The notes beneath the pieces are model-generated. The model was given only the letters and a program-made list of their open reading frames with translations, did no database searches and was not told the origin of the DNA. From Mastigias papua (taxonomy: Eukaryota; Cnidaria; Scyphozoa; Rhizostomeae; Mastigiidae): DNA of 64,000 bases. The position numbers were made by a program, and so were the translations under genes. The stretch is taken from the NCBI GenBank assembly GCA_964019165.1, contig OZ025286.1:9608188-9672187 (forward strand), written 5' to 3'. This document shows, one piece after another, positions 5,727 through 63,923 of the stretch (positions within the stretch are counted from its first letter, which is position 1; each line of letters starts with the position of its first letter).

Positions 5727-56080
<50,354 letters not shown>

Positions 56081-57498
56081 GTGAGTGATTTGACCAAACG
56101 TAGAATATTTGGCCACATAAGGATTAGAAAGAAGCTTGACTGTTTCCTTGATCTAGTTTACAGATGAGCAGTCTACATCCTTTATTGATTAAGGTTAATG
56201 TTCAAAAGTATTGAAGCTCTTACGACAGACCTAGTGTGCAAGCCGACTGATACTCATCAGTAAGTGGATAAGAGGTCTTTTACCCTTGGCTTTCAAAAAC
56301 GGTAATGGCCGATAGTTAAAAAAGTAGCTTATAACTGATATTTGCTTAGAAGATCGCGAGATAGATGCTAGGATAACCCTTTATTTGGCAGTGGCATCAT
56401 ATGATCATCATATGATTGAACCGAGTCTAAGTTGGTCTGGTTCCATGGGATAACCTTCCCAAGTGTCGTTTTACATGAAGTATGTAATATTCAGCAATGC
56501 CCTACAATAACAGTTCTTGTGAGATTCAATTTAACTGGAAAAAGTAGTTTTTGAAACCATTTATAGAAGGCCCAGCCAGAGTGCAATAGAGTTAGTTGAA
56601 TTTATGGATAATTTTGAGCTGTTGTTGTCCAGGATGTCAGCTGAGAATCCTTACTGTTTTGTTATCACTGGAGACTTTCATGCTCGCTCCCTTTTATTGC
56701 GGGAAAATGATTTAGAAAACGATGCAGGAAAATTATCTAAGCCTTTCGCGACGGGTCTTGGACTCCAACAGCTAATTACTCACCCAACGCATTTCATGGG
56801 GTATTCCAGATCGTGCATTGATCTAATATTAAAGGATCAGCCTAATCTCTTTATTGGTTTTGGAGTTCACACCTTCGCTTCACTACAAATGCCATCATCA
56901 AATCATATGGGGCAAATTAATAAAAGACAATTTATCTATTCCGCCATTCAAGCGAAAAGTCTGTTCTTACAACAAAGGTGATATAGAGTCAATAAGAAAA
57001 AGCATAGACATTTTTCGTTGGAGTGAAACCCTAGATGGGATTGATTTCCCAAAAGTGAAGGTGATGAAGCTAAGCAAGATTCTGTGCATATTTTTGCTAA
57101 CTTCATACCAGATAAAATCATCACAATTGAGCCCAAGCAGTCCCCTTGGATAACCCAGCGGATCAAAATTTCATACGCAGAAAGAATCTAGCATATAAAA
57201 GTTTTGTGGAAAATTGTCTAGAAGAAGATAAGGTATAGGGTATAAATAAGATGACCTCTTGATGATCCAAACTTAGTGAGGATGCTAAGCAAAAGTACTT
57301 CATGATCATAGGGCGTACACTATCAAATCATCATACTGGAGGGTAAACTTCCTGGTCACTGGTTTATAAATATCTGAATAAAACTAAGATACCAATAATT
57401 CCCCTCTTCTTGAAAATAGCGTATTTGTTTTAGATTTCTCTGCAAAGGCACAATTTTCAGTGAGCTTTTTGTACTTCAATGCTCAACCTTAGATTCAG

Positions 57499-58031
57499 GG
57501 AGCGAAATTCCGCTGATGTTAAATTCCGCTTATATGAAATTCCACTGATGTGAAATTCCGCTGATGTGAAATTCCACTGATGTGAAATTCCGCTGATGTG
57601 AAATTCCGCTGATGTGAAATTCCGCTGACGTGAAATTCCGCTGATATGAAATTCCACTGATGTGAAATTCCGCTGATGTGAAATTCCACTGATGTGAAAT
57701 TCCGCTGATGTGAAATTCCGCTGATATGAAATTCCACTGATGTGAAATTCCGCTGATGTGAAATTCCACTGATGTGAAATTCCGCTGATGTGAAATTCCG
57801 CTGACGTGAAATTCCGCTGATATGAAATTCCACTGATGTGAAATTCCGCTGATGTGAAATTCCACTGATGTGAAATTCCGCTGATGTGAAATTCCGCTGA
57901 TGTTAAATTCCGCTGATATGAAATTCCGCTGATGTGAAATTCCGCTGATGTGAAATTCCACTGATGTGAAATTCCGCTGATGTGAAATTCCGCTGACGTG
58001 AAATTCCGCTGATGTGAAATTCCACTGATGT
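57499..58031. repeat. 16-bp satellite, about 33 copies, with higher-order structure
   Basis: Unit CTGATGTGAAATTCCG with variants (C/T at GACG/GATG, G/A at CCGC/CCAC, TATG/TGTG). Variant markers repeat every 176 bp (GACG at 57,627 and 57,803; 11 units) and then 192 bp (57,995). The array starts within RT-connector coding text (GGAGCGAAATTCCGCTG), so it seems to have grown from the host element's own sequence. Long ORFs on the minus strand (HISGISHQRNFTS) are artefacts. Confidence 0.95.
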
Positions 58032-58176
58032 GTGTCAGTACAAAGTACCATCATTTTCTGGTCTCGATGTTTCCGATGAGAAAATATTAAAGATAATTCG
58101 ATCACTACATCCAAGCAAGGCTCATGACTGGGACGAAATATAAGGTTGCATGATTAAAATATGTGATTGGGCGCTG

Positions 58177-58204
58177 CACAGTGTGCCCAGAGGAAGGAAA
58201 AAGT
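58177..58204 (+). repeat. left TIR with 12-RSS-like layout
   Basis: CACAGTG, a 12-bp spacer TGCCCAGAGGAA, then GGAAAAAGT. The A5 core coincides with that of the V(D)J nonamer ACAAAAACC. Confidence 0.7.
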
Positions 58205-59051
58205 GAAAATCACATATCCCTGTATCTGCAAATGCTCATAGCTGCCAAATGCACAATAAACTGAGCTACAATACACTTTTTTAATTAATAAATTATCTTT
58301 TATCGATTTCGTATAAGGCTGATTTGAATGCGTCCATTTTTGTTTGTCTTGCGAACTTGAGGTGTTCGAAAACCCCGCAGAATTGCCGATATAGAGAATT
58401 ACTGCATAGTGCAGGTATGCATTCCAGTTAAGCTGTTGAAGTTAACTAAAAAATTCATTTTGCTATTGTTAGTTGGTGACACCACCTATATGAAGCAGTT
58501 TTGCTGCATCAGGATATCTATTTCATTTAGCGCTAGCGGAAGTCTAGCTAGTAATTGGCTACATGTGACTTTTTTGTCAAATGGCACTTAAAGGTTAGCA
58601 CACTTCCATCATATCTGCAATTTTTTCGCAAGCTCGGGGCTGATGAATTCTTATCTATAGGTAATGCCGTACATGTTAACTGATGAAAACAGGCTAGTTT
58701 ATGGGGCCCCGGCAATGCGGATTGGCGCAGCTTCATCTTTTCTTTCACTGACTGGGTAGAAGGTAGACGTGAAATTGAGATCAATCCTTAAGAGACTATT
58801 ACTACAAACGTTAATATTGATGACATGCTCCATTTTGCAATGAATAAGCTGTTTACAAATTTTGAAGTCGAAAAACGTTGTACCTTGACATAACTCTCAA
58901 TAAACTTAAAATTAAGAATATTTTACTTTTGGCAGTACGTTGAACAATATTGGGAAGTCGCCAAGCAGAACTGTAGTTATGAAAGGATGAAATAGGATAC
59001 AAGTCAATTGTATCAAACTTATGCTGAGATGTTCATCAAATATATGGAGAG

Positions 59052-61201
59052 TTATCGGGAAAAGCAATAGAGAGCCATGATTAGAGAATCATCTCCACTA
59101 AGGTTACCGGCAACACCATGGTGAAGTTTAGACCGAGCAGTGTGGCCCAGACAACCACAGGCACTACACTGGATTTTTCGACGCCTGTTCACGACTAGAG
59201 GATTTGTCATCCATAGCATGCTAGCGAGAATGTCATGCATGTTTTCTTTAATACAATGTTGCCTAGCACGTGTGCCACAGCCCCTTTTAAACCTTGCTAG
59301 GTGCTTGTTCCAGTGTTCCTGAGCCTGCTCACTGAAAACGACAATTGGCTCTGGGGACATCTCGAAAAGCTCCCAACTGTGGGCACACATTGAGTGCAAT
59401 GAAAGATTGATTTGGATCCACGGTTTTCCTTGTTCATCTATAAAAGCAGTGCGGATATTATACATGGTATCAATATCCAGTTGCCTAAGACCATATGTAT
59501 TAACCCCTGGCCGCTCACTCAAACATATACTCAGCATAACATTGATGTTGCACAACAATAATTTGTAGTTCTCACGATCTGCTTCACGAGGTATCATATC
59601 GCATATGGCATCTCTTGACTTGGGATCAAAAAACTGTTGAGCAATATACCCATTGTTCATATTTCCACTCCCAGGTACAGGTACGTCGACAGGGAACCCC
59701 ATTTTCCTTCGAATGTGTTCCTGAGCTCTCAACTTCGCTATCGCAATGCAATGTGTCTCCGTATCAGACGCCACCCGTCCCCATTTGTAGACAACGCTTA
59801 TTAATCTATAGAGGATACGTAAACAGAAATCAAGAGATCGAAGCTTCCAGTGCAGTATACAGAAATTTGTGATGGATACTAGGGGCTTGTCACACTGACC
59901 TTGCCTTTGTAGATCATTATAGTTGATTTCTCTACTCTCAAGATGTTGCCATGCTTCCATATATGATTCGTATGATTTTGTGATGGAAAAGCCACGGAGG
60001 ATTTGAAGTGGATCATTTCTGTCAACCTCTGATGAATCACAATAATGGCATTTCCTGGAACCGAAATCCCCTTGTAGTATTCCGGCCATTTTGCCATCAA
60101 TCATAGAGACCGTGTTCTTAACATTCAAAGTAATAGGGGTTTGGAGTCCTGGAAGAGGAAGGGAAAATTTTTCATTGTTATTAACACAGCTGAAGAGCTG
60201 ATTGAACTCTTTTTCTATAACATCCCTTGACTCTACTGCACGAATGATTGAAAGTGGCCTCGTGTATGATATGGCATTTGGCGAAGGATTCTTCCAAAGT
60301 TGGACAGTCCCACCATCTTTTATGACATCAATCGACAGAGGCGTAATGCAGCAAAGAAGGTAGTTGGTGGTTAAGGTGGGATCAAGATGGGGATTCTCTT
60401 CCACTGACAACTCAATGTTTACTATTTGATTGCGACTACGGTGACCCCTCGATCCATCAATTCCAGTTTTAACATTTAGAATGAGAGTACTGCCCTGAGG
60501 AACTTCATCTATACATTGTTCTGCCTCAACAAGACTCAAAGCAGTATTTTTCATGAGTTCAGGATAGTCAACACTGCATTTTATTTCATTTGCGATTATT
60601 GCTGGATGCAAAGTTTTCTCAATATCAATTTCATTTCTTGTTGGAAGCTCAACTCCAAATTTCAGCAGAAAGAGACGCAACTCTGTCCATCCTCTCGAAG
60701 AGAACCCAGCATTGAAAAAGAAGGCCAACGCTTCTTCTTTGGGAACTGAGCACTTAATTTTGGGCCGTTTCGATTCCTCGGGAATGAGAAGACTAATAGC
60801 ACACTCATAAGATACTCCTTGCTGCTCAGCAAAAGCTTTTAAACGCTCTACTTCAGGTGTCATTATCTTCCTTACTGTGTCAGCACAAGGACTTTCACTT
60901 AGCCTTTTTCCTGGTCTTCCCACCGACTTTGAAGTTTCAGGAGAAGTAGAGAAGACATCGCCACCGCCTATACCAACAGAAGATTCACCAAAGAGATAAA
61001 AGGAGACTGCAACCAATCCTGATACTCTTTAGATAATCTGGCTTTCTTTGGTTTTGACTTCTTCAAGCGCTCAAGTCTTCTACGTACAGATTCTTTGGTG
61101 CCAATGCTTGGAAACTTTTCTACAATTGTTTGAGCTGCTTTTTCTTCATCTCCCGCAGAATGCTCAATAATGCCAAATGCTTCAATAGTTCTAATTATCA
61201 T
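59052..61201 (-). CDS. Transib/RAG1-like transposase (one frameshift near 61,000)
   Basis: The main frame (654 aa, 61,016 to 59,052) aligns by eye with the RAG1 core and with Transib transposases. The predicted DDE triad is D187 (GIDGSRGH), D307 (SMIDGK) and E567 (AQEHWNK). Its zinc ligands are C323/C326 (CHYC) and H541/H546 (HSMCAH); the H-x4-H spacing is that of RAG1 H937/H942. Between them are SITKSYESYMEAW, RRKMGFPVDVPVPGSG and RDAICDMIP, each with a RAG1 or Transib counterpart. The C-terminus has a small CCHH-type cluster (C617, C620, H625, H632). The N-terminal 70 residues (MIIRTIEAFGIIEHSAGDEE...) lie in another frame, 61,201 to about 61,000, so one indel separates them. It cuts and pastes DNA at the CACAGTG ends in the nucleus. 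Other than the frameshift it looks intact. Confidence 0.9.
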
Positions 61202-61449
61202 TTTGAACTGAACTATAGCCTCTTAGCTGTAAATTCTAATTTTCATAACAAAATAGTAAACCAGAAATGAAACTTCACTCAATATTAGCAGCATTACAAG
61301 AGTATATCTTAAAACTGCAAATTTAGTAAAAGAAGACATTACAATGTAGGACGACATTCTTTCAAAATGTCAATTTTAACTACACATAAATAATTCTCAG
61401 TTCTATCTCATGCAAGTACATTTTCATCAAGAAAAATGACAGTGTCCAG

Positions 61450-61930
61450 TTATTTTATACTTTCATGAGATCCATCTTACAATTATGCACTAAATAAGTT
61501 CAGAATAACTTATTGCAAGCGATTTTGAGCAAAATATGTTAGAAATGTGTTTTTGGCCGAAATGACCATATATAGTAATATCACCCTAAAACCCCCAAAA
61601 CTGATATTTTTGCATAATTTCTATTTCCATCAGATACATCTTACAGTTATGCACTAAACTAGTTCATAAAAATATTATACAAATGATTTTGATCAAAAAT
61701 ATGCTACATAATGTGTTTTAGGCTGAAATGACCGTATACAGCAATATCACACTAGAAACCCCAAAGCTCATATTTTTAGATAATTTATACTTTCACCAGA
61801 TCCATCTTACAATTATGCACTAAATAAGTTCAGAATAACTTATTGCAAACGATTTTGAGCAAAAATATGTTAGAAAATGTGTTTTTGGCCAAAATGACCA
61901 TATTTGGTTGTAAGTCCCCAGGAACCCCTA
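61450..61930. repeat. about 165-bp tandem repeat, nearly 3 copies, inside the Transib-like element
   Basis: Units begin with CATCTTACAATTATGCACTA at about 61,473, 61,636 (one variant) and 61,803. Each contains GATTTTGA-CAAAA-TATG and a TTTTGGCC-AAATGACC box. It lies between the transposase start and the right end, where promoter or end-binding repeats could act. Confidence 0.9.
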
Positions 61931-62034
61931 AATTTAAAAGTTTCGATTATGATTACTTTCAATAGATTCTTTACAAATTTCGAATCAAATGAACCCTCAA
62001 CCGTTATCCTGGGATTATCTTCAGTCTTGTAATT

Positions 62035-62072
62035 AATTTTTCCTCAAATTTCTGCTTTCTGGGCACACTGTG
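62035..62072 (-). repeat. right TIR with 22/23-RSS-like layout
   Basis: Read on the minus strand: CACAGTG, 22-bp spacer starting TGCCCAGAAAGC, then GGAAAAATT. The nonamer-like word differs from the left one at a single base, but sits ten bases (one helical turn) further in. Confidence 0.65.
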
Positions 62073-62427
62073 CGCTGGTTCTAAGTCTGAAGCTAATCTT
62101 TAAAGATTGCTTAGCTCATGGCATCTTCCCAGAAACCTGGAAAAGAGCAAATGTTGCAAATGTTGCACGTGTGCATAAAAGAATGGCAAAAATTTGAAGG
62201 ACAATTTCCGCCCAATATCTTTGCTTCCATTATTTGGGAAAATCTTTGAAAAGTTAATATATAACACCGTCTATGAACATCTGGATTCAAATGGATTGCT
62301 AAATCCTAATCAATCAGGCTTTCACCCGGATGATTCGACAATTAATCAATTAGTATCAATAGTACATACTATATCTGAAGCTTTTGACTATAATCCAACA
62401 CTTGAAGTAAGATTCATATATATATAT

Positions 62428-63923
<1,496 letters not shown>

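Follow-up and report, generated by a model that had tools for sequence, protein, structure and literature searches.

How V(D)J recombination arose turns on the form of the ancestral transposon. The element described here lies in a 64,000-nucleotide stretch of the Mastigias papua genome (contig OZ025286.1, positions 9,608,188 to 9,672,187 of the forward strand), hereafter the window, in which an earlier note had claimed a complete Transib/RAG1-related transposon with exact ends. We find that it is very probably of the sort that Tao et al. (2022) call Subgroup I, within the Transib superfamily of cut-and-paste DNA transposons, and that it was inserted in an old non-long-terminal-repeat (non-LTR) retroelement and carries a single gene for a 717-amino-acid RAG1-like transposase that has decayed in this copy. 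The ends, catalytic acids, zinc pairs and predicted fold all uphold the claimed relationship; "complete" was an overstatement, as the gene in the window is frameshifted. Elements of this kind are already described (Subgroup I Transibs, PMC9435367), and we do not claim that the family itself is unreported. Comparisons with the literature draw on that paper and on excerpts of PMC7204232, PMC4411706, PMC8355894, PMC8289069 and PMC1852546.

The boundaries of the element are sharp (Table 1). Its two 15-nt terminal inverted repeat (TIR) arms are 100% complementary and form the sole termini-joining pair among the ten inverted pairs found, and both the identical TIRs and the 5-bp target-site duplication (TSD) CGCTG are exactly as the earlier note described them at both ends. 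Bases 1-7 of the TIR, CACAGTGTGCCCAGA, equal the consensus heptamer CACAGTG of the recombination signal sequence (RSS), as given in the excerpt of PMC8289069. A search of the 346.8-Mb assembly (172 contigs) with the left 824 bases of the element returned at least 42 matches, six of them at 97-100% with the window's own included; copy statistics refer to the best 21 of these matches, window included. The same ends recur in these copies, with a 5/5 TSD at the expected boundaries in 17 of 21 (the exceptions are L009, L018, L020 and L027). Because L012 and L013 have their flanks in common (96-99% identity over 600 bp on each side), the 17 perfect TSDs represent 16 separate sites. Over these sites the TSDs follow the pattern CGNYG, with C at the first position in 15, G at the second in 11, any base at the third, C or T at the fourth in all 16 and G at the fifth in 11. 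TIRs that start with CAC next to a 5-bp GC-rich TSD characterize the Transib superfamily, and the excerpt of PMC8289069 reports a GC bias of the TSDs of ProtoRAG, Transib and RAG.

The two ends differ in the placing of an A-rich box. At the left end, 20 of 21 copies have its A5 core beginning at base 22 (L024 deviates); at the right end it starts at base 32 in the window, L009, L010, L011 and L012 and at base 31 in 15 others (L027 deviates). Read in RSS style, one side has a heptamer, a spacer of 12 and a nonamer-like box and the other a spacer of 22 (21 in relatives). By this placing, the TIRs are asymmetric in the manner of Subgroup I. The spacing is already a known trait, since the excerpt of PMC8355894 gives 12/23±1 ends for some Transibs. 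The placing could instead be chance in AT-rich ends with no functional 12/23-like asymmetry, a reading that we consider unlikely but well worth weighing. Adenine accounts for 37-43% of the sub-terminal 60 bases, the box agrees with only 5 of the 9 RSS nonamer bases, the 20 of 21 copies are not 20 independent observations because of their common ancestry, and a family with evenly placed boxes occurs in the same genome (L052). Against chance, single-base shuffles placed A5 at 12±1 and 23±1 jointly in 0.034% of 200,000 draws, in a test that was set post hoc; the left box is retained in relatives of merely ~75% identity; and, on reading the ends by eye, two other families of this genome have a common block displaced between their ends, by 10 bp in one and 9 bp in the other.

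The transposase preserves the catalytic acids and both zinc pairs of RAG1, as had been claimed, and is of the RAG1-type RNase-H DDE class expected of the Transib superfamily. HzTransib is its best match both in sequence and, by predicted fold, in structure. The 654-amino-acid frame reported before runs to 658 residues from stop to stop and is not the whole transposase: copies L009 and L011 contain uninterrupted frames of 717 amino acids, and in the window a frameshift separates the first ~70 codons from the main frame, which matches residues 71-717 from FGESS onwards and is one codon short. In the 3.9-kb L009 no second long frame, such as a RAG2-like gene, was present, any other frame within or overlapping the element being at most 119 amino acids long; this copy thus has the single protein of Transibs and lacks the convergent RAG1-like (RAG1L) and RAG2-like (RAG2L) genes of RAG-like (RAGL) transposons. 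No Pfam family matched the transposase above cut-off (zf-CCHC_6 scored 16.9, cut-off 22). The Pfam model PF26100 is annotated on 6 of 16 protein relatives, among which is a krill protein (47%), and also on HzTransib-type and RAG1L matches.

Two parts of the protein resemble RAG1L. From the zinc CxxC to the next conserved His there are 61-64 residues in the window's family, 60-67 in RAG1L and 64 in mouse RAG1, compared to 30 in HzTransib-type proteins (20 of 20 chosen). Judged from length and alignment, the family therefore appears to have the region equivalent to RAG1 alpha11-alpha12. The second part is a C-terminal CxxC..GH zinc knuckle, found in 15 of 17 family proteins (P0002-P0018; P0013 and P0017 end before its position) and in 31 of 44 RAG1L matches, several of the remaining ones being short or ending early, and in none of the best 120 of 998 HzTransib-type proteins. 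In aligned rows both cysteines and the histidine are present in all 23 RAG1L rows chosen and in all 14 family rows with letters there. This tail is the type I C-terminal tail (CTT1) that, together with the alpha11-alpha12-equivalent region and asymmetric TIRs, marks Subgroup I Transibs (Tao et al. 2022, PMC9435367). The family also has the GRP motif resembling that of the nonamer-binding domain (GRPGKRLSES in P0018; of the 12 family rows with a letter there, 10 have the G of GRP), which is common to Subgroups I and II (PMC9435367).

We compared the window's family with its relatives in a tree of 61 rows that comprised 15 of 18 family proteins (three fragments were left out), 20 of the 120 HzTransib-type proteins, 23 of 44 RAG1L proteins and the L052/L055/L063 group, made up of other families of this genome. 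A quick tree with partial mouse RAG1 had given that sequence a long branch and was replaced by this one, in which mouse RAG1 does not figure. The tree is unrooted because no bacterial outgroup was found: bacterial and archaeal genomes and viral contigs gave 56 and 142 pattern matches, none of them confirmed as a relative by tblastn. The window's family, the HzTransib-type and the RAG1L proteins each formed one side of a branch with support of 100/100, and the L052/L055/L063 group did so with 100/97. That the element is a RAGL transposon of the ProtoRAG type that has lost its RAG2-like gene is improbable. Such an element would explain the knuckle and the long zinc-domain stretch in common with RAG1L, and an approximately unbiased (AU) test did not reject the family together with RAG1L (p 0.514). 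However, the 23 RAG1L rows stand apart from the family at 100/100, and L009 has no second long frame. Mean core identity of the family is 19.6% to RAG1L and 23.4% to HzTransib-type proteins, and the profile E-value against RAG1L is 1.1e-26 compared to 1.5e-45 against the HzTransib-type. The family's profile match to RAG1L is in turn stronger than that of the HzTransib-type to RAG1L (4.9e-19). Classing the element as a plain Subgroup II (HzTransib-type) Transib that has no particular link with RAG1 is marginally less probable still. HzTransib is the best match of the transposase, and the tree joins the family with the HzTransib-type at 95/80; set against this, HzTransib-type proteins have the short zinc domain and a tail devoid of the knuckle, neither of which is found in the window's family.

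The five full-length copies (window, L009, L011, L012 and L013) are 3.9 kb long and pairwise 96.8-98.8% identical. L012 lacks the first Met and has a frameshift near the C-terminus, L013 has a frameshift mid-gene, and L010 has lost most of the transposase gene. A further 15 places (L014-L028) span 1.9-3.0 kb, mostly ~2.3 kb, with a left arm 72-75% identical to the window's and the transposase body gone; judged by these sequences they are a non-autonomous set, and in at least 9 of the 15 a protein search found a short match to a C-terminal stub (residues ~670-703). Domestication of the transposase as a host gene, which the whole 717-residue frame retained in two copies might suggest, is highly improbable, given that both copies sit within elements with recognizable ends and that, of the codons that differ between them, 16 change the amino acid and 11 are silent.

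Several observations weigh against this reading of the element. Its place in Subgroup I is a probable one, drawn from described traits. The AU tests reject neither the family with RAG1L nor the family with L052/L055/L063 (p 0.167), and we have therefore dropped any claim on deep branching order. The suggestion that the element falls between Transib and RAG1-like families stands as far as traits go (long zinc stretch, knuckle and uneven ends) and is not settled by the trees; Tao et al. (2022, PMC9435367) likewise regard Subgroup I Transibs as perhaps intermediate between Transib and RAG1L. The branch to which the window's copy belongs has another residue in place of the last knuckle Cys, and L052 has both RAG1L-type protein parts together with even boxes, contrary to the Subgroup I rule (PMC9435367). 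The 16 to 11 ratio of codon changes gives no sign of selection on the L009 and L011 frames. Finally, no full-length copy of the five combines a whole gene with two perfect ends: the window and L012 have both ends perfect, L009 and L011 have whole frames but left ends that open with changed bases (AGCAGTG and TACAGTG, respectively), L009 has no matching TSD, and the right end of L013 is altered (CAGAGTG). We therefore claim present-day movement for none of them.

A protein search of the genome gave at least 63 matches and revealed no fewer than three more families that have long unbroken frames, represented by L052 (749 amino acids, with several copies: L051, L058, L060-L062 and L066), L055 (745) and L063 (704). 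All three have the C-terminal zinc motif, with D for G before the His in L055, and the zinc-domain gap is 69 residues in L052 and 67 in L055. Of 12 other loci hunted for inverted repeats with TSDs, one, L055, yielded ends, with 10 of 14 TIR bases, the TSD TAGGG and, by eye, an 11-bp common block that lies at base 25 in one and base 15 in the other. For L063, a relaxed search gave ends with 13 of 14 TIR bases, no matching TSD (1 of 5) and an 8-bp block at 19 and 28 by eye, and L052 has the TSD CCTTC, a 16-bp TIR and, by eye, a box at 20 of both ends. A second long frame was not found in the stretches examined of the window's family, L052, L055 and L063. A search of the genome for RAG2 gave no match, but neither did its control, so that it does not speak for absence. 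Counting the window's own, the genome contains no fewer than four RAG1-related families with RAG1L-type parts, among which the unevenness of the boxes varies.

When the flanks of the element were joined with one CGCTG, a reverse-transcriptase frame was restored, reading IKICDWA up to the junction and LVLSLKLIF beyond it. Restoration of this frame on paper excision, as claimed earlier, is borne out locally; the retroelement copy was itself already broken before the insertion by a stop upstream, directly after WDEI. A search with the joined flanks gave nine matches, of which two are the window's own, three run uninterrupted across the junction (C22, 74%; C12, 69%; C20, 68%) and four are one-sided. 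An endonuclease fragment on the left side is probably part of the same target retroelement. A minisatellite of 33 copies of a 16-bp unit, GAAATTCCGCTGATGT (92% matches; 57504-58032), ends ~140 bp before the left TSD. Elsewhere in the window two non-LTR retroelements have long frames free of interruption that include endonuclease and reverse-transcriptase domains (17287-20670, plus strand, 1128 amino acids; 27906-30947, minus strand, 1014 amino acids), one of them near a predicted tRNA at 27645-27719 on the plus strand (ARAGORN: Cys, anticodon aca; Rfam tRNA 50.9 bits). Within the element, parts of the 166-bp tandem repeat are also matched within other copies, and the array could possibly serve as a promoter or binding array.

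Table 1 Features of the element and its insertion site, in window coordinates.
Feature	Position	Strand	Remarks
Endonuclease fragment	56535..56978	+	PF14529, E 5.8e-05, under Pfam cut-off
TSD CGCTG, left copy	58172..58176	.	
Transib-type transposon	58177..62072		3,896 bp, flanked on both sides by CGCTG
Left TIR CACAGTGTGCCCAGA	58177..58191	+	3' side of transposase gene
A5 core of nonamer-like box, left end	58198..58202	+	Spacer 12 after heptamer
Transposase main open frame	59052..61028	-	658 aa stop to stop
N-terminal coding segment	60989..61201	-	Residues 1-71 of 717-aa protein; other frame than main
Tandem repeat	61454..61903	.	2.7 copies of 166-bp unit; arm upstream of transposase
A5 core of nonamer-like box, right end	62037..62041	-	T5 on plus strand; spacer 22 after heptamer
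Right TIR CACAGTGTGCCCAGA	62058..62072	-	5' side of transposase gene
TSD CGCTG, right copy	62073..62077	.	
Reverse-transcriptase fragment, far side of insertion	62179..62490	+	PF00078, E 4.7e-06, under Pfam cut-off

HzTransib and RAG pair their ends, nick at CAC, form hairpins on the flanks, leave blunt excised ends and transfer strands with a 5-bp stagger. By homology, two subunits of the present transposase would bring together an end with the short spacer and an end with the long one, nick next to CAC and then form hairpins on the flanking DNA. The element would be released with blunt CAC ends, and strand transfer would take place across a 5-bp stagger into GC-rich targets (CGNYG), the 5-bp duplications and the target preference being observed here. 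A line with no RAG2, an exact RSS heptamer, 12- and 22-bp spacers and a RAG1L-type zinc stretch and tail might be a living stand-in for a stage before RAG2, an idea that we regard as speculative and rather doubtful. If it were true, the pairing of unequal ends would not need RAG2. The window copy is one decayed member and alone settles nothing; the four or more families of this genome provide a natural set for asking if it is the protein parts or RAG2 that uneven ends depend on.

Among known systems, Subgroup I Transibs (PMC9435367) share with the element one RAG1-like transposase, CTT1, the alpha11-alpha12-equivalent region and uneven TIRs, a likeness drawn from described traits; the window's branch departs from them in the last knuckle Cys. 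HzTransib of Helicoverpa zea (PDB 6pqn/6pqx; excerpt of PMC1852546) has the same fold, active site, 5-bp TSD and one gene, and measures 3,518 bp to the 3,896 bp of the window's element; unlike the latter, it has neither the long zinc-domain stretch nor the knuckle, and its TIRs are called symmetric in the excerpt of PMC8289069. ProtoRAG and other RAGL transposons, as presented in the excerpts of PMC7204232 and PMC8289069, have CAC ends, a 5-bp TSD, the knuckle tail and the long zinc-domain stretch, with uneven ends in ProtoRAG, but they carry convergent RAG1L and RAG2L genes whereas the window's element has no RAG2L, and their RAG1L proteins group apart. Compared with vertebrate RAG1 and its 12/23 RSSs, the window's is a mobile element with no RAG2 partner, a box matching 5 of 9 nonamer bases and ~19% identity; the two share the second and third acids, the zinc pairs, the core fold, the heptamer CACAGTG and, in the element, spacers of 12 and 22.
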